A stretch of 64,000 nucleotides of DNA, from positions 496,001 through 560,000 of the forward strand of contig JAHDQO010000001.1 in the NCBI GenBank assembly GCA_018433765.1. Reading direction: 5' to 3'. Both the position numbers and the translations under genes were made by a program. Below, one piece after another: positions 144-7,888 of this stretch. The notes below the pieces were generated by a model. It made no database searches, was not told where the DNA came from, and saw only the letters and a list, made by a program, of their open reading frames with translations. Position 1 is the first letter of the stretch. Every line of letters begins with the position of its first letter. The stretch is from Tissierellales bacterium (GTDB lineage Bacteria > Bacillota > Clostridia > Tissierellales > Sedimentibacteraceae).

Positions 144-215
144 CCTTCATAAAAGGTCAATTGATGAAATAAAAAACACTTCTGCCATGCTACAGTATGG
201 CAGAGGTGATTTTTT
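141..215 (+). terminator. Two tandem hairpins between genes, possible attenuator
   Basis: The first hairpin pairs TGACCTT (141-147) with AAGGTCA (153-159) and starts in the stop codon of the upstream gene. The second pairs TCTGCCAT (181-188) with ATGGCAGA (197-204). It is followed by AGGTGA and a six-T run (211-216), just before the ATG at 218. The second hairpin therefore resembles an intrinsic terminator whose 3' arm touches the Shine-Dalgarno site, so it could act on transcription, on translation, or on both. Confidence 0.5.
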
Positions 216-217
216 AA

Positions 218-3200
218 ATGATAAAAAAAGTAGTTTTGACAATTATGTTGCTTATGGCAGCTATTACAAGTTTAGTATTTGCAACAAAATATTTTAGTAA
301 TACTGAAGAAGAAGGAATTGAGTTAAAAAGTGCGGTTGTTTACAACAGTGAATGTACTGATATTCCAGCGGCTTATTCTCATTTAGAACAATCTTTAGTA
401 GTAAATTTAAAGGTAGAACTTATTGATGTGGCAGATTACAGAGGGTTTGACGAAAACGGAGAAAAGGATAAAAAGTTATATGAATATTTGAAGGAATTTG
501 ATATTCTATACCCTGACTCAAGTATAATGAAATACGCTCAATCAAAAAAATTAGCACAGGATATTGAAGAATTTGTACGAAATGGCGGTAGTGTATTTCT
601 ATCAAATGAATTCTGGAACTTTTTTAATACAGATTTTATAGGTGCAGGAGAATTTATAAAGCTAGAAGGTATTCAAGGAGAATTTAAGTTTCCGGAAGTT
701 ACTGAAGATTTAAAGCCACTTCAGGAATTGGTGGAAGATTTTACATCTCTTTATAACAAGTATAAGGATAAAAAGGAGTTAGCGGCTAAAGATTATGGTT
801 ATGGTATTAAAGGAGGAACAGCTAAACCTTTAGTAGTTTTAAATGAAACTGCACTTTATACCATAAATCAGGTAGGTGAAGGATATGTATATTTTACAAA
901 TCCAGTTTTACCCAATGAATTTAATATTAACAGTTTAGATATGCAACCCAAAAAGGAAGGACAGAAGTATTTTTCAAACACTACAGCAGCTTGCAATCAA
1001 ATGATAAGAAGTGCATTTGCAGCTTTTATATCAAAGGACAAATATGGATTTTCTGTAGAAAGAACTTTTGGATGCTATGGGCGTCCTTCAATCATGTGGC
1101 AGTTGCATTATGAGGAACAGTCTGGTATACGGGAAAATTCAGCAGTGATTATGTCGGAACTTTGCAAAAAGTTTTTAGAAATTCCTTCTTTTTCAATAAT
1201 AAGGAACACTTATTATTGGTTTACTCGATATGAGACGGTAACTTATCTATTGGCAGACAATAGTGATGGAAACGATAAAAATTATACTTATGCTATGGAC
1301 GAACGTGAAAATGCTTATTCTTCAGGAATACATATAGCATCTGGAAATGAGTGGTTTCAATTAGGAAAGGTAGAAAATGCAGGAAGCTACTTTAAAGACA
1401 GACCCGAGTTTTGTAAAAGAGCATATCCGTGTGTATTTAAGAATCCAAATAGTGGATATGTAGATTTAATCTGTGGTGCTGATGATGGTTATTTTTACTA
1501 TTTTGCTGGGCTTGGTTTTGGAGAAAATTATGAGACAGAAAAAAAGGTAATACTTAAGAACAGAGATGGTAATAAACTTTCAGTAGGAGAAGGTTCAGCA
1601 CCTGTACTTTTGGATATAGACGGAGACAATATTGAAGATATTATTTCCGGTAGTGCAAGTGGCGAAGTTTATTGTTTTAGAGGACTTGGAAATTGGTGCT
1701 TTGATAATCCTGAGAAGATCTTGGACAAACCATTTGACGGACAATGTTTCCCTCAAATTGGGTATATAAATGAAGATGGTATACCTGATTTGGTAGTAGG
1801 AGGTAACAGCAGCAATGTAAAATTTTATTTCGGACAAAAAACAAATAAAACATTGACATTTGTACCAACTAAAAATCTTTATATTTCTGGAATGGATGAA
1901 ATAAAAGGTAGTTGGTGTGCTCCTGCTCTTGTTGATTTTAATAATGATAAAGAGATGGATTTGGTTATAGGTACAGTAGATGGATATATTGCACGTTTCC
2001 TTAGAAATGGTGATAGATTTGTCTTTGAAGGCTATTTTACAGGTCCAGAAGATAACTACAAGGGAAATAATTATCTAAAGTTTGGAAACAATTGTGTTCC
2101 AGTTTTCTTTGATTTAAATGGCGATGGAAGGGAAGATTTGATAGTCGGTTCTATTGAAAATGGACTTGCATATCCTTTGGATTCCAAGTATTTTCCTTAT
2201 AAGAAAGAACTTCAAGCTCAACTTAAACATATGCAAGAAAACTACTATTCTGTAGACATGCATTTATATACTAAGTATTATGCATCAAACGCTTATGAAA
2301 AAAAAGAAATTCAAGAACATTTGAATACTATGAAGAGTTATGGTTTGGATACAACAAATATAGGCTTTAACATGCATACTTGGCATTTAAGTAAAAACGG
2401 ATATACACAAACTTTAGATAATGGTTTTGATGCAGGACTCTGCTGGTGTTCAGGTTTTGAACCTGCAAAAAGTGATGCTACTCCTGATAACAGTGCTGAA
2501 ACAGCACTTTCAATTCCTTTTATGTATGGGCAAAAAAATAAACTAAAGGATCGAGTTATTTTTAACGCCTCTTTATTTCTATATGATTATTATAAGGCTA
2601 CAGATATTTCTGTAAAATATGGCTTGCCATTAAGTATATATTATCATTGTGAATTTTCTTATAGTGATAAAAAGGAAGCAGAAAGAATCGTATGGATAGT
2701 TGCTGATTTTACAAGAAAGAACAACTACAATTTTATAACTGAGAAACAGTTTGCTAAGATGGCTGCAGCTTCATATAATACGGATTTTTTAGTTTATATG
2801 AATAAAGAAAATAATACTATTAATATTGAAACAAAAACTCTGAGCAAAGAGGGTATACTTTATGATTCCAACTATCAACAGGCTGTTGGTGTTAAGGTTG
2901 TTTTAGGTGAGAAAATGGCAGAAGAAGCAAAATACACTGTAAAGTCAAAGGTATTGGATAAACGTAAAAATGTATATTATCTTGGGGCAACTTGCAAAAA
3001 AATGGGGCAGTTGTCTATGGTGGAAAAGTATCCGGAATTGCAGATTGTACGTGTTAATATTCCGGCAGACATTAATTATAGGAGAAATAATGTTACTCTG
3101 GAATTTTTAGATGGAGGTATGATGCAGGCAGAAACAGCGGGCCCAGCTACAACTTCTTCACAGGGATGGACTGTGACAAAATCTGAAAATGGAGGTACAA

Positions 3201-3253
3201 TTTTTACTAAATATGGTAAAGGTGAAGCACTAGATATTCACCCTGTAAAATAA
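218..3253 (+). CDS. Large exported FG-GAP/VCBS repeat protein of a dlt-like operon
   Basis: This 1011-residue protein starts with a hydrophobic N-terminus (about residues 4-23), probably a signal peptide or signal anchor, so the bulk should be outside the membrane. Residues about 25-200 look like a Rossmann-like domain with the segment NGGSVFLSNEFWNF, reminiscent of amidotransferase-like folds. Residues about 400-655 contain several FG-GAP/VCBS repeats (DIDGDNIEDIISGSASG, DFNNDKEMDLVIGTVDG, DLNGDGREDLIVGSI), usually calcium-binding beta-propeller blades. Residues about 675-855 hold a further domain with conserved-looking His and Trp (NMHTWHLS, YYHCEF), possibly related to NodB-type polysaccharide deacetylases; this is a weak guess. 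The last 150 residues look beta-rich. It leads the dlt-like genes by 27 bases and probably handles the surface polymer they modify. Exact function unknown. Confidence 0.75.
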   Translation: MIKKVVLTIMLLMAAITSLVFATKYFSNTEEEGIELKSAVVYNSECTDIPAAYSHLEQSLVVNLKVELIDVADYRGFDENGEKDKKLYEYLKEFDILYPDSSIMKYAQSKKLAQDIEEFVRNGGSVFLSNEFWNFFNTDFIGAGEFIKLEGIQGEFKFPEVTEDLKPLQELVEDFTSLYNKYKDKKELAAKDYGYGIKGGTAKPLVVLNETALYTINQVGEGYVYFTNPVLPNEFNINSLDMQPKKEGQKYFSNTTAACNQMIRSAFAAFISKDKYGFSVERTFGCYGRPSIMWQLHYEEQSGIRENSAVIMSELCKKFLEIPSFSIIRNTYYWFTRYETVTYLLADNSDGNDKNYTYAMDERENAYSSGIHIASGNEWFQLGKVENAGSYFKDRPEFCKRAYPCVFKNPNSGYVDLICGADDGYFYYFAGLGFGENYETEKKVILKNRDGNKLSVGEGSAPVLLDIDGDNIEDIISGSASGEVYCFRGLGNWCFDNPEKILDKPFDGQCFPQIGYINEDGIPDLVVGGNSSNVKFYFGQKTNKTLTFVPTKNLYISGMDEIKGSWCAPALVDFNNDKEMDLVIGTVDGYIARFLRNGDRFVFEGYFTGPEDNYKGNNYLKFGNNCVPVFFDLNGDGREDLIVGSIENGLAYPLDSKYFPYKKELQAQLKHMQENYYSVDMHLYTKYYASNAYEKKEIQEHLNTMKSYGLDTTNIGFNMHTWHLSKNGYTQTLDNGFDAGLCWCSGFEPAKSDATPDNSAETALSIPFMYGQKNKLKDRVIFNASLFLYDYYKATDISVKYGLPLSIYYHCEFSYSDKKEAERIVWIVADFTRKNNYNFITEKQFAKMAAASYNTDFLVYMNKENNTINIETKTLSKEGILYDSNYQQAVGVKVVLGEKMAEEAKYTVKSKVLDKRKNVYYLGATCKKMGQLSMVEKYPELQIVRVNIPADINYRRNNVTLEFLDGGMMQAETAGPATTSSQGWTVTKSENGGTIFTKYGKGEALDIHPVK

Positions 3254-3280
3254 AAAATAGATACAAAAAAGGAGAACAAA

Positions 3281-4810
3281 ATGAATGAACTGAATTCAGT
3301 AGTGAGACTGCTAGATTTAGGTGTGGGAAAATACGGTAACAAGATATTGTATGAAGACAGTGATAAAACTATAGAATTTGTGGAACTTCGTAAATTAGCT
3401 CGGATTATTGCTACCAGACTTATACGAGAAAAAAATAAGGATAGAAAAAACGCTCCAGTACTAGTTTATATGTCCAAAAGTGTTGATGCTTTAACTGCTT
3501 TTATGGGTGTATTATACAGCGGTAGTCCATATGTACCTATTGATACTAATATGCCTGCTGCACGACTACAAAAAATATTGAATAATCTTAAACCATCAGC
3601 AGTTATAACAGATTCTATACATTATAAGAATCTTTTTCAGGTAGAAATTTTTGGGGCTAAGTCATATGTTTTTTCAGATATATCCTCAGGAGAGATAGAT
3701 GATAATGCAGTAAATAAGGTAGTAGATGGAGTTATTGATACGGATCCAATCTATATTATGTATACATCTGGTTCAACAGGAGAACCCAAGGGAGTAACAG
3801 TATCACACAGAGGTGTAATAGATTACGCCTTATGGTTAGTGGAGACTTTTGGTTTCGACGAAGACACGGTGATGGGAAATCAAGCACCCCTTTATTTTGA
3901 TAATTCAGTGTTTGATATATATGGTTGTCTGCTCTGCGGTGGTAGAGCAGTACTTATACCTGATAGTCTTTTAATGTTCCCTATAAAATTACCAGAGTTT
4001 TTGGAGGAGCATGAAATAACTTCAATTTTTTGGGTACCTACGGTTATGATAAATGTAGCTAACTCAGGAGTTCTGAAAAAATATCCAATGCCTAAGCTTG
4101 AAAATATTGCCTTTTGTGGTGAAGTTATGCCAAATACTCAATTAAATATATGGCGTCGGGAACATCCTGATGCTAAGTATGCTAATCTTTATGGACCTAC
4201 GGAGATAACAGATGTATGCACATATTATGTGGTAGACCGAGAGTTTGAAGATTCAGAGCCTCTGCCTATAGGATGTGCTTGCAGAAATATGAGAGCGATT
4301 ATTCTTACTGAAGATAATCAATGTGCTAAACAAGGGGAATCGGGTGAACTTTGCATAATTGGTTCAGGAGTGGCACTGGGATATTGGGGCAAAAAGAATA
4401 TTACAGATAGTGCCTTTATTCAAAATCCATTAAATTCTAATTATAGAGAAATCATTTACAGAACAGGAGATTTGGCGTTCGAGGATAAGGATGGATTGAT
4501 TATAATACAGGGAAGGTTGGACAGTCAGATAAAGTTTAAGGGCAATCGAATCGAGCTAGGAGAGATTGAAAAAGCTGCTATGTGTCTAGAGGGTGTGGAA
4601 AATGCTTGTTCTCTCTTTAATGAAACAAAGGGAGAAATAACTCTTTTTCTACAGACTAAAGAAGAACTTATGCTTAGAAAGGTTAATATGGCTTTGTTAA
4701 AGTATGTACCTAGGTATATGCTTCCCCAGAGACTAGTTACTATAAAACAATTTCCTCATACTGCAAATGGCAAAATAGATAGAGTGGGTCTTAGAAAAAC
4801 TTATTTTTAG
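3281..4810 (+). CDS. dltA: DltA-like amino acid adenylating ligase
   Basis: A 509-residue stand-alone adenylation domain of the ANL superfamily. It should activate an amino acid with ATP and load it onto the adjacent carrier protein in the cytoplasm. Motifs visible in order: YTSGSTGEPKG (A3, about residue 167), YFDNSVFDIYG, FCGEVMP, LYGPTEITD (A5), YRTGDLA (A7), GRLDSQIKFKGNRIELGEIE (A8) and the terminal PHTANGKIDR lysine (A10). Length and partners fit DltA. The A5 and A8 motifs read more like NRPS-type domains than classic DltA, so D-alanine is the default but not proven substrate. The start is supported by AAAGGAG 7 bases upstream. The carrier gene follows 51 bases later. Confidence 0.85.
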   Translation: MNELNSVVRLLDLGVGKYGNKILYEDSDKTIEFVELRKLARIIATRLIREKNKDRKNAPVLVYMSKSVDALTAFMGVLYSGSPYVPIDTNMPAARLQKILNNLKPSAVITDSIHYKNLFQVEIFGAKSYVFSDISSGEIDDNAVNKVVDGVIDTDPIYIMYTSGSTGEPKGVTVSHRGVIDYALWLVETFGFDEDTVMGNQAPLYFDNSVFDIYGCLLCGGRAVLIPDSLLMFPIKLPEFLEEHEITSIFWVPTVMINVANSGVLKKYPMPKLENIAFCGEVMPNTQLNIWRREHPDAKYANLYGPTEITDVCTYYVVDREFEDSEPLPIGCACRNMRAIILTEDNQCAKQGESGELCIIGSGVALGYWGKKNITDSAFIQNPLNSNYREIIYRTGDLAFEDKDGLIIIQGRLDSQIKFKGNRIELGEIEKAAMCLEGVENACSLFNETKGEITLFLQTKEELMLRKVNMALLKYVPRYMLPQRLVTIKQFPHTANGKIDRVGLRKTYF

Positions 4811-4861
4811 AAAATAAAATAATTGATATAAAAACTAAAAAACATAATGGAGGATAATAAG

Positions 4862-5101
4862 ATGAATGTTAAAGAAATACTATATGAATTTGTAAAGACT
4901 AAGTTTGAAATAGGAGATGATCCAGATTATAGTATGGATGCTCACCTGTTTGATTTAGGATTTGTTGACTCTTTGGGTGCTACAGAAATTATAATTTTTG
5001 CTGAGGAAACATTTGGAATAGAAATTAGCCAAAAAGATATCTTAATGAACGATATGAATACCATTAATGAAATTGCAGCAGTTATTGAAAGTAAACTTTA
5101 G
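4862..5101 (+). CDS. dltC: DltC-like acyl carrier protein
   Basis: A 79-residue carrier protein with the phosphopantetheine attachment serine in FVDSLGATEI, close to the DSLG motif of DltC and PCP proteins. It should hold the aminoacyl group as a thioester after loading by the upstream ligase and deliver it to the MBOAT protein. The ATG at 4862 was preferred over the in-frame ATG at 4847, because GGAGG (4849-4853) sits 8 bases before 4862 and overlaps the earlier codon. Its place between ligase and GNAT differs from the common A-B-C-D order. Confidence 0.88.
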   Translation: MNVKEILYEFVKTKFEIGDDPDYSMDAHLFDLGFVDSLGATEIIIFAEETFGIEISQKDILMNDMNTINEIAAVIESKL

Positions 5102-5127
5102 ATAGTAGTAGAACAGGAGGGTTGAAA

Positions 5128-5643
5128 ATGGAGAGCAGCAATGGTTACAGAGTAAGAATAGCTGATTCAGAGGATATTGGTGTCTTACAAAAAATTTACT
5201 GTGATATGTATGAATACCTAAGTAATTTTGGATTACCTTATGAATTAAATAAAGATAATTTAGAAGAGGTGTTAAAGCTTCAACTTAAAGCACGAAATAG
5301 AGTTGTCTTATTGCTTGAGGAAGAAGCCTTTTTGTTACAAGGTAAAGTTGATAAAAGTAGAATAATTAGTGGATTTTTGACAGTAGAACTTCATCGCATG
5401 GGACGCAGGATAGAGGGTGACGGCTGTAATATTATTGGACATGTTAGTGAAATCTATATTTCTCCTGAGTTCCGCGGTGGGGGGAGAGCAAGTGCACTTC
5501 TTGATGTGGCGGAGCATTGGAGTAAAAATTCGGGAGCATATCTTATAGAATGTGAAGTTTTAAACAAAAATGAAAAAGGACTTAAATTTTGGGATAAAAT
5601 GGGGTATTGGCCACAGTACCAAATTTTTAATAAGAAGCTTTAG
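5128..5643 (+). CDS. GNAT-family N-acetyltransferase inside the dlt-like operon
   Basis: A 171-residue GNAT acyltransferase. The acetyl-CoA pyrophosphate loop is visible as SPEFRGGGRASALLDVAEHW (Q/RxxGxG/A type), preceded by the beta-4 strand HVSEIYI and followed by the C-terminal ECEVLNKNEKGLKFWDKMGY segment typical of GNATs. The start at 5128 follows AGGAGG at 5115-5120. Classic dlt operons carry no GNAT. Its position between carrier and MBOAT genes suggests it modifies the amino acid, the carrier-bound aminoacyl group or the polymer precursor. The acceptor is unknown. Confidence 0.8.
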   Translation: MESSNGYRVRIADSEDIGVLQKIYCDMYEYLSNFGLPYELNKDNLEEVLKLQLKARNRVVLLLEEEAFLLQGKVDKSRIISGFLTVELHRMGRRIEGDGCNIIGHVSEIYISPEFRGGGRASALLDVAEHWSKNSGAYLIECEVLNKNEKGLKFWDKMGYWPQYQIFNKKL

Positions 5644-5670
5644 AAGAAGAAATTGGGGTGAAAATAAAGC

Positions 5671-6822
5671 ATGTGGTTTTTAGATGCTAACACATTATTT
5701 TTAATTTCGGCAGCAGTTATTTTGATAGGATTTATGAGAATATTAAATCAAACATTTCAGCTTAATTTGCCAATAAAGTATATCATGCCTTTTGTGGAAG
5801 TAGGTGTAATATATTATATAGATAGTAAACTGGCAATTTTTTATATGGTATATATAGTGATTACTTATCTTTTAGGAGTGTTACTATATAAAGCAAAAAT
5901 TTTTCGTAAAACATTATTTTTTATATGTTGTGTAATAGCATGCATACCGTTTTTTTTAAATCGCATGCCAGCTTTAGGCATTGAAAACATAAATTTTTTA
6001 ATAATAATAGGTATTTCGTATTGTATGTTAAAGGTCATAGACACTTATTTTGTAATTTACTATGGGGAATTAAAGATAAAACTATTGGTATATATTAATT
6101 ATATTTTATTTTTACCAGTATTTACATCAGGACCTATTCACCGTTTTCAGGATTTTAAAAAAAGTTTAAAATACCCCCTGCATATTGATGGTGTGTTAAT
6201 AGCTCAAAGTATTAAAAGGCTAATTCGAGGTCTATTTAAAAAGCTAGTAATGGCTGAAATATGCATGCTTATATTTCAGCAGTTGCTTTCTGTGGAATCT
6301 TGCTGGTATGTAAGTTGGGGGATTATTTTACTAAGTTATTTAATTTTGTGGTTGGACTTTTCAGGATACAGCGATATTGCTATAGCCTTTGGAAACATAG
6401 CAGCAATAAGGGTTCCGGAAAACTTTAAGCATCCATTACGCTCTGCTTCTATGACACAGTTCTGGCGAAATTGGCACGTGACGTTGAGTGATTATATACG
6501 AGAACATATTTATATTATTGTTGCTAAGAAGAAATTAAATAAGTTTAAAAGCGGTTTGCTTGCGTTTCTTACTATGTCACTTATGGCATTATGGCATGGT
6601 TTTAACTTTAATTTTATTATCTCAGGATTTTATCTTGGTATGATACTTTTTTTTGAAAATATTTTTAAATTGACGACTGTTAATCGTAAAAAAGTAAATA
6701 AAGTATATTTTTATAGTAGATGTTTTATTACTAATTTACTCTTTGCTATAAATACTCTGATTTTTACGTTGTCAGAGCCGGCAGAAATTTTTAAAGTAAT
6801 AAAAGGGTTATTAATTTTTTAG
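5671..6822 (+). CDS. dltB: DltB-like MBOAT acyltransferase
   Basis: A 383-residue polytopic membrane protein with about 10 hydrophobic segments. It carries two MBOAT signatures: FWRNWHVTLSDYIREHIYI (about residue 268) and the catalytic-His region LMALWHGFNFNFI (about residue 308). DltB-type proteins take the aminoacyl group from the carrier protein on the cytoplasmic face and pass it across the membrane. Neighbouring ligase, carrier, DltD-like and DltX genes support this role. A GGGGTG site lies upstream at 5655-5660, slightly far (10 bases) from the ATG. The final stop is followed by a 59-base gap to the next gene. Confidence 0.88.
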   Translation: MWFLDANTLFLISAAVILIGFMRILNQTFQLNLPIKYIMPFVEVGVIYYIDSKLAIFYMVYIVITYLLGVLLYKAKIFRKTLFFICCVIACIPFFLNRMPALGIENINFLIIIGISYCMLKVIDTYFVIYYGELKIKLLVYINYILFLPVFTSGPIHRFQDFKKSLKYPLHIDGVLIAQSIKRLIRGLFKKLVMAEICMLIFQQLLSVESCWYVSWGIILLSYLILWLDFSGYSDIAIAFGNIAAIRVPENFKHPLRSASMTQFWRNWHVTLSDYIREHIYIIVAKKKLNKFKSGLLAFLTMSLMALWHGFNFNFIISGFYLGMILFFENIFKLTTVNRKKVNKVYFYSRCFITNLLFAINTLIFTLSEPAEIFKVIKGLLIF

Positions 6823-6881
6823 GCATATATTATATATGTTTGTACGGTACAAAAAAACGGTGGATAAAATGGGTGAACAAA

Positions 6882-7790
6882 ATGAAAATAAAAAAAAATA
6901 ATAAATTATCAATAATATTTATCATTGGTCTTTTTATAATTTTAGTAGTTATAGACAAATTATTTAGTATGTTTGATCCAGTCGCTTCTTTAGAAGTTTT
7001 CTATAAAAATGATTTTGAAAAAACCTGGTTGTCTCATCAGGACAATAAGGAAGAAATAGAAAGAATTTATGATAAAGTTTTCTTTGGAAATTCAACAGTA
7101 ATAGCGGCATATGCTGAGGAAAAAAGTATTAGTGGATATGTAAATATGGGGATGGATTATGCAACTATAAAAGATCTTTTAGAGATTTTAGAGGGCGAAT
7201 TTGTTCAGATTACAGACGAGTTAGTGCTGGGAATTAATTATTTGACTTTTCTTGATACTTTTGATACAAACCCTTCATATATCTGGCACAAAAAGCCTTG
7301 GGAACCATATTTGTATTTTCATAGAGACCGCTTACACAGTTTTATTACAGAAGGTATTAAAAATGTTTTAGTGAGAGAATCGTTTGTAACAGTTAAATAC
7401 ACGGATTTAAATAAATACTACTATTATGGTGTTTTAAGTGACAAAGAGTTAAATGAAAAAATTGAAATACATGGCAAAAAATATTGGTCAATATCCACAT
7501 CAGAATATCAAGAGAATATGGTGGCACTAAAGTACATTATTGATTATTGTAATCAGAGAGGAGTAAGGCTCAGATGTGTTTGGATGCCTTGGAATCCTTA
7601 TGTAGATAAACCAGTAAATGTGTTGGAAGTGGAAGAACAAGTCAATCAAATTCTAGAACAAGCAGGTATTGAAGTTTTAAACTTGTCAAACAATTTTTCT
7701 AGAGAAAGTTTTCATGATTTAGGACATTTGAATTATGCGACAGGTAGAAATAAATTTATGGGGGTGATTGACGAATGGTTAAGTCAGTAA
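6882..7790 (+). CDS. dltD: DltD-like SGNH-fold extracytoplasmic protein
   Basis: A 302-residue protein with one N-terminal transmembrane helix (IIFIIGLFIILVVIDKLF) and the rest probably extracytoplasmic. The segment VFFGNSTVIAAY replaces a GDS-type nucleophile block, and FHDLGHLN near the C-terminus supplies the DxxH of an SGNH catalytic triad. This matches DltD and AlgX/AlgJ-like partners of MBOAT proteins, which complete transfer to the polymer outside the cell. The ATG at 6882 was chosen because GGGTG lies 6 bases upstream; longer in-frame starts from 6840 lack a site. The last 16 bases overlap the dltX-like microgene. Confidence 0.75.
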   Translation: MKIKKNNKLSIIFIIGLFIILVVIDKLFSMFDPVASLEVFYKNDFEKTWLSHQDNKEEIERIYDKVFFGNSTVIAAYAEEKSISGYVNMGMDYATIKDLLEILEGEFVQITDELVLGINYLTFLDTFDTNPSYIWHKKPWEPYLYFHRDRLHSFITEGIKNVLVRESFVTVKYTDLNKYYYYGVLSDKELNEKIEIHGKKYWSISTSEYQENMVALKYIIDYCNQRGVRLRCVWMPWNPYVDKPVNVLEVEEQVNQILEQAGIEVLNLSNNFSRESFHDLGHLNYATGRNKFMGVIDEWLSQ

Positions 7791-7888
7791 TAAGAACTTT
7801 TGTACAGATAGTGATGTATGCTATACTAGTATTATTAATATGTATGTTTTTTTCTGGACATGGAGAATTTATTTACGAAGCGTTCTAA
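7775..7888 (+). CDS. dltX: DltX-like microprotein (37 residues)
   Basis: This small reading frame overlaps the end of dltD by 16 bases and encodes 37 residues: a short basic N-terminus (MVKSVIRT), one transmembrane helix (about residues 9-26) and the tail SGHGEFIYEAF. DltX proteins of dlt operons are about 45-50 residues long, with one helix and a conserved C-terminal F-I-Y-x-x-F-type motif; the ending FIYEAF matches it. The tyrosine (Tyr34) is the residue expected to take part in acyl relay with DltB. GGGGGTG at 7760-7766 gives a plausible ribosome site. It sits last in the operon, whereas dltX is usually first. Confidence 0.82.
   Translation: MVKSVIRTFVQIVMYAILVLLICMFFSGHGEFIYEAF

Follow-up and report, generated by a model that had tools for sequence, protein, structure and literature searches.

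A Dlt-like gene cassette of Clostridia that includes a PelA-like exoprotein

The Dlt pathway is the textbook Gram-positive route to altered surface charge and host-peptide resistance, in which D-alanine is placed on teichoic acids. Its membrane relay passes the acyl group from a carrier protein to a tyrosine of the microprotein DltX and then to a serine of DltD; an equivalent has also been described for PatA/PatB, and other MBOAT pathways work without a DltX-like microprotein (PMC12148441). Here, we describe a gene set found in a 64,000-nucleotide stretch of DNA (the window) from a Tissierellales bacterium (assembly GCA_018433765.1, contig JAHDQO010000001.1; C13:496001-560000 in a genome of 4.19 Mb and 38 contigs). 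Seven plus-strand genes at 218 to 7888 encode an exoprotein, an adenylating ligase, a carrier, a GNAT N-acyltransferase, an MBOAT protein, a DltD-like protein, and DltX, and all seven open reading frames (ORFs) were confirmed in the place and order given by a preliminary description of this DNA. The set looks like a conserved clostridial system and an apparently undescribed relative of the Dlt system; no account of it was found in a literature search limited to open-licence papers. Our preferred reading, which we hold with slightly more belief than doubt, is that it would acylate an extracellular glycopolymer through a Dlt-type tyrosine relay, in conjunction with a PelA-like exoprotein that handles the polymer.

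Relay components and relation to described systems

All three motif sets of an MBOAT-SGNH tyrosine relay are present, namely the MBOAT histidine, the SGNH Ser-Asp-His residues, and the tyrosine motif. The carrier (4847 to 5101, 84 amino acids [aa]) has its phosphopantetheine serine at Ser42, invariant in 28 of 28 aligned sequences, as are Ser85, Asp293, and His296 of the DltD-like SGNH transferase (6840 to 7790, 316 aa; 28/28). The DltB-type MBOAT (5671 to 6822, 383 aa) has the catalytic His309 (invariant, 21/21 aligned) and no tyrosine motif of its own, since it stops short of the additional C-terminal motif found on PatA-type proteins. The tyrosine is instead in a DltX-type acyl-shuttle microprotein (7775 to 7888, 37 aa), whose FxYxxF end reads FIYEAF with Tyr34 encoded at 7874 to 7876; the protein read from the window DNA is MVKSVIRTFVQIVMYAILVLLICMFFSGHGEFIYEAF. 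Intergenic gaps of 17 to 36 bp and a terminal 16-bp overlap between the DltD-like and DltX genes indicate that the set reads as a single operon.

General domain models from Pfam/NCBIfam matched FG-GAP (1.4e-15), AMP-binding (1.4e-65), PP-binding (4.8e-8), GNAT (4e-10), and MBOAT (1.5e-23). The cut-offs of the models specific to Dlt proteins were all missed. The MBOAT scored 157.6 bits against the DltB equivalog (LTA_dltB/TIGR04091, cut-off 375), which was the only family matched there (5.1e-46), the carrier reached 24.4 bits against the DltC equivalog (TIGR01688, cut-off 52.35), and the DltD-like protein gave a weak match to DltD (PF04914; 18.3 bits, E 0.0016, cut-off 22.7). Judged by motifs and curated models, then, the window holds every predicted part of a Dlt-type relay, yet lies outside the Dlt family.

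Comparison with the Dlt pathway (DltX-A-B-C-D) shows the same ligase, carrier, DltB-type MBOAT without a fused tyrosine tail, SGNH protein, and separate FxYxxF DltX. In contrast, no component of the window set reaches a curated cut-off, the pocket code of the ligase is not that of DltA, and the gene order is different; the cassette carries one to three ligases, an optional GNAT, and a PelA-like exoprotein, and teichoic polymerases were not found in the window's genome. With the PatA/PatB pair of MBOAT and SGNH proteins (PMC12148441), the cassette shares the catalytic MBOAT histidine, the tyrosine relay motif, and the SGNH acceptor enzyme. However, it draws on a ligase and a carrier rather than on acetyl-CoA, and its tyrosine motif is on a separate microprotein instead of on the MBOAT.

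By analogy with Dlt and PatA/PatB, the ligase would adenylate an amino acid that is probably other than D-alanine and load it onto the phosphopantetheine at Ser42 of the carrier; the MBOAT, via His309, would deliver the group through the membrane onto DltX Tyr34, from which it would pass to Ser85 of the DltD-like protein and on to the polymer as an ester. Where the GNAT is present, our guess is that it acylates the carrier-bound amino acid at its amino group, and we also guess that the exoprotein, outside the membrane, binds the same polymer and deacylates or otherwise edits it beside the transferase. The nature of the polymer and of the acyl group is likewise a guess. The same membrane relay has apparently been reused with other ligases, at times two or three per carrier, together with an exoprotein dedicated to it. 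If this holds, the relay would serve more generally to export acyl groups bound to a carrier, and the matching of ligase, relay, and polymer could be tested directly in these operons.

Conservation, gene order, and split operons

The preliminary description had proposed looking for the gene set in other genomes. A profile search with the exoprotein alignment, made in a one-genome-per-species collection, returned 50 loci; a single-sequence scan of contigs with the exoprotein returned none. One locus from Nitrospirae (L090) matched in the FG-GAP repeats only and was dropped as a relative, leaving 49 contigs. Genes of dlt type adjoin the exoprotein gene in 43 of these, and presence in so many independent contigs rules out chance. 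The exoprotein gene stands beside ligase, carrier, MBOAT, or DltD-type genes in 33 of the 43 conserved loci and beside DltX only in the remaining 10, where DltX precedes it. It comes first, as in the window, in 20 loci and last in 13, of which 11 have it after ligase(s)-ACP-MBOAT-DltD-DltX (ACP, acyl carrier protein) and two (L056 and L073) have dltD as the sole dlt-type neighbor. No dlt-type neighbor was found in 6 of the 49 loci; in L041, L045, and L072 the exoprotein gene sits at a contig end, and the genomes of L043, L053, and L065, whose assemblies may be incomplete, yielded only generic MBOATs. The genes flanking the cassette vary between loci, which shows that the cassette itself is the conserved unit.

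Within a sample of the class, a near full-length exoprotein was found in 9 of 391 genomes, the window's included; in a further genome (G221) the copy is broken or divergent, and another three gave weak matches inside the FG-GAP repeats. Transfer is the probable origin of the cassette in the window's genome, which alone among 27 from its family has the exoprotein. Most of the exoprotein's named relatives come from uncultured Clostridiales and Oscillospiraceae, and the carriers of the cassette are clostridia, often from the gut or rumen.

Cassette composition also varies. The GNAT (5122 to 5643 in the window, 173 aa) occurs in 7 of the 49 related loci, all with the exoprotein gene first, in the window, and in a separate-contig cassette of the L041 genome; the eight that were aligned are about 30% identical, have a clear signature in common, and seem to form a single family. 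The GNAT is thus an optional extra and not a core member. Many species carry two or three ligases in the cassette. The preliminary view of a rearranged dlt-like set with two additional genes was right about the gene order and the presence of exoprotein and GNAT; as an overall interpretation it was borne out for gene set, order, ligase type, and conservation, failed in treating the GNAT as a core part, and did not have the multiple ligases of the relatives in view.

Genomes with only DltX beside the exoprotein were searched with the MBOAT alignment. A cassette-type MBOAT lies on another contig (E < 1e-130) in G281, G315/G421, G386, G419, G420, and G422. Five of these regions were read (G281, G315, G386, G419, and G422); they have the order ligase-ligase-ACP-MBOAT, with DltD in four of the five (the G386 contig stops within the MBOAT gene), and they yielded no DltX-like ORF. 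Hence, in split operons DltX stays beside the exoprotein, apart from its expected MBOAT and DltD partners, and this is the best sign that exoprotein and DltX may work together.

The DltX end is F-I/V/L-Y-E in essentially all copies. In three loci (L047 16114-17547, L066 14641-16209, and L088 18145-19347), the free microprotein is replaced by a multi-helix membrane protein of 400 to 522 aa that carries DltX as its C-terminal tail. One of the three gave an under-threshold PMT_2 match (E 0.012), an identity that neither a structure model (AlphaFold pLDDT 41, unusable) nor solved structures backed. These fusions, together with the PMT_2 match, could suggest that the acceptor is a membrane lipid or lipid-linked sugar and not a polymer. 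We consider this very unlikely, because PMT_2 lacks that structural backing and the fusion is confined to three related species.

The exoprotein and its possible role

The exoprotein (218 to 3253, plus strand, 1011 aa) is predicted to be secreted or anchored, with a PelA-like fold and an FG-GAP propeller. Its AlphaFold2 model, built with 45 sequences, had a mean pLDDT of 88.9 and a pTM of 0.88. After an N-terminal signal anchor comes an alpha/beta, GATase-like domain (317 to 1057, residues 34 to 280), to which we assign the Foldseek matches 2gk3 and GH164 Bs164 by inference, the search having given no matched region; a weak DUF4159 match falls in this region in four relatives. The NodB-like esterase domain begins next (1064 to 1273, residues 283 to 352), with the motif LHYE(D/E) at residues 291 to 300 and, in four relatives, a weak match to DUF2334, which we take to be NodB-like. 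An FG-GAP beta-propeller (1355 to 2173, residues 380 to 652), seen in both the model and domain searches, is inserted in the esterase, whose second half (2195 to 2776, residues 660 to 853) precedes a C-terminal beta-sandwich (2780 to 3250, residues 855 to 1011). All of these lie on the plus strand; the two esterase halves were placed by model and alignment, and the sandwich by the model.

The best solved-structure match was PelA of Pseudomonas thermotolerans (9cgy, E 9.8e-7, TM-score only 0.24 by query length); the matches ranked next were propellers and GATase-like domains. The NodB-like esterase fold is present by the model, the PelA match being of moderate E-value and low TM-score, and the domain-by-domain reading of that match is ours, as the structure search did not give the matched region. 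With the PelA/PelADA deacetylases (CE21 and a proposed new carbohydrate esterase [CE] family; PMC12022489, PMC13254593), the exoprotein shares the alpha/beta domain, the NodB-like esterase, the beta-rich C-terminus, and an H-x-(acid) in motif 1. It differs in that no hydrolase barrel was seen, the propeller lies inside the esterase, Glu stands for the catalytic Asp, and the likely second metal histidine is absent from the window's protein. PelA uses H526, D528, D530, H600, H604, and H761 (PMC12022489), and PelADA uses D262, D263, H350, H354, and H488 (PMC13254593). Furthermore, PelG, sought as a Pel-type export partner, was not found over the cut-off in 12 cassette genomes, unlike in a Pel locus. 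The suggestion that the C-terminal domain processes or holds a polymer gained from this polymer-processing architecture, although the esterase is split by the propeller and is not just C-terminal.

In the alignment, E299, H682, H720, H810, and E842 are invariant (45/45) and H297 is present in 44 of 45. Position 686, the likely second metal histidine, is His in 20 of 45 and Asn in 16 of 45, and in the window it is Lys (K686). The Asp-His-His metal triad is therefore incomplete, with Glu at the base position and 686 mostly not His. More distant homologues elsewhere in the phylum (L142 9805-12852, L143 2135-5131, and L144 2410-4560) retain HxxxH in all three. The exoprotein thus appears to be one of a broader group of putative polysaccharide esterases; in this cassette it would have been brought into the relay, and its site is changed.

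Two variants of the exoprotein's role can be weighed on these residues. It may be an editing esterase that removes the aminoacyl group from the polymer, a role like that of DltE from Lactiplantibacillus plantarum, reportedly an extracellular esterase encoded in the dlt operon and thus a precedent for an additional extracellular enzyme there. The esterase-like fold with its invariant His and Glu residues is consistent with such editing, but the fold is said to differ from that of DltE, CE4/PelA-type domains usually take off acetyl groups, and the metal triad is incomplete, so that we regard this variant as rather doubtful. Alternatively, the exoprotein could be a non-catalytic scaffold holding the acceptor polymer beside DltX/DltD. 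The second metal histidine is gone in 25 of 45 sequences whereas HxxxH is intact in the three distant homologues that stand alone, the propeller and the beta-sandwich are modules of a binding type, and DltX remains with the exoprotein in split operons; the five fully invariant residues, however, go beyond the apparent needs of pure binding. We give the scaffold variant a substantial share of our belief, without favoring it.

Ligase specificity, the acceptor, and the weight of the evidence

The stand-alone ligase (3281 to 4810, 509 aa) passes the model for amino acid adenylation of the nonribosomal peptide synthetase (NRPS) type (TIGR01733, 336.4 bits, cut-off 317.4) and fails the DltA equivalog (TIGR01734, 293.4 bits, cut-off 559.85), in agreement with the earlier view that it leans towards NRPS-type A domains. 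Against solved structures, the GrsA A domain (212.7 bits) and DltA (211.5 bits) were level. No DltA over the cut-off was found in the window's genome.

Pocket codes were read from nine aligned residues, the last Lys being assumed. The window's DNFFACLDVK does not resemble the DltA code. In relatives of its type the code is DNFF(A/V/L)(C/A)LD(V/A)K, second ligases have DNFF(L/M)AMDIK or DNFFVALVDK with a small number of variants, and DVMY(A/C)ALDVK is found in a set of loci with a single ligase; three near-DltA references from the class read DLMVLCTVCK, DLMVLCTVAK, and DLAVVVGVAK. The codes are thus conserved per ligase clade and distinct from DltA. Since Asp235 is kept, the substrate would be an alpha-amino acid, and it is probably other than D-alanine. 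The pocket codes and the ligase gene counts suggest that, where a species has two or three ligases, a single carrier may receive residues of more than one kind. Extending this, several ligases of differing specificity could share one carrier and place mixed, sometimes N-acylated, aminoacyl esters on one polymer, with a DltX-bound PelA-like protein preparing or editing the acceptor sites. We offer this multi-substrate version tentatively.

The same genome contains a second acylation operon (L091 5564-10512, contig C33), with an Sfp-like phosphopantetheinyl transferase, a ligase, a carrier, an MBOAT, and an SGNH protein. It shares the ligase/carrier/MBOAT/SGNH set with the cassette but has its tyrosine motif fused to the MBOAT, which ends PIYGGF, and has neither DltX nor the exoprotein. 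Its ligase code, SMTYMALDIK, lacks the amino-binding Asp (Ser replaces Asp235), and its substrate may not be an alpha-amino acid. Elsewhere, the genome has several large NRPS-type adenylation domains (G000 C13:29-54 kb and C7:47-70 kb); the code of one, DVWHFSLIDK, presumably resembles that for serine. In a tree with long branches and unsure deep joins, the cassette ligases fall together with the second-operon ligase, apart from the DltA references and from two of the genome's own NRPS domains (100/98), and the window ligase groups in a clade of ligases from exoprotein-first loci (96/89).

For the window's organism, a classical teichoic acid is an improbable acceptor, because its genome yielded neither an LtaS-type sulfatase at E<=1e-20, the sole match being a soluble-looking 498-aa sulfatase-family protein, nor a TagB/F-type (PF04464) protein. 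The earlier hint of a non-teichoic polymer agrees with this lack of the usual teichoic acid polymerases.

It is important to consider the observations that weigh against relay acylation coupled to the exoprotein. The window's protein lacks the likely second metal histidine, as do 24 of 44 relatives, and with K686 in its place it may bind rather than cut. No dlt genes were found near the three distant homologues on the stretches examined (two of them short), which indicates that the exoprotein can work without the relay. As for the ligase, the pocket codes name no substrate, and Cys at pocket position 301 is common to the window ligase and two of the three DltA references. In addition, among the 11 other genomes with a cassette, 10 have a sulfatase-family protein at E<=1e-20, mostly LtaS-sized (650 to 730 aa), both LtaS-sized sulfatases that were read have membrane segments, and PF04464 occurs in 7 of the 11; the acceptor may be teichoic in those species.

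The Cys at 301 and the LtaS-sized sulfatases, together with relay chemistry and gene types identical to Dlt, are what would be expected of ordinary teichoic acid D-alanylation, with a ligase that has merely diverged and exoprotein and GNAT as passengers. We nevertheless consider that explanation unlikely: every curated Dlt cut-off is missed, the pocket code apart from Cys 301 is unlike DltA, many species have two or three ligases, the linkage to the exoprotein is conserved, and LtaS-type and TagB/F-type proteins were not found in the window's genome.

Upstream of the operon, two genes on the same strand (within L003 16569-19143) encode a Ser/Thr kinase whose C-terminal part is lectin-like and a helix-turn-helix-like, regulator-like protein of 363 aa; neither is kept beside the cassette in other loci. 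Just before the start codon of the exoprotein gene lies a highly stable leader hairpin (170 to 216, plus strand, -34.7 kcal/mol, z -6.2), for which an Rfam search matched no family. Its 3' arm contains a likely Shine-Dalgarno sequence, AGAGGTG (202 to 208), and a U-run separates the stem from the ATG. The hairpin is likely either a terminator-like element or one that hides the ribosome site and acts as a translation switch.

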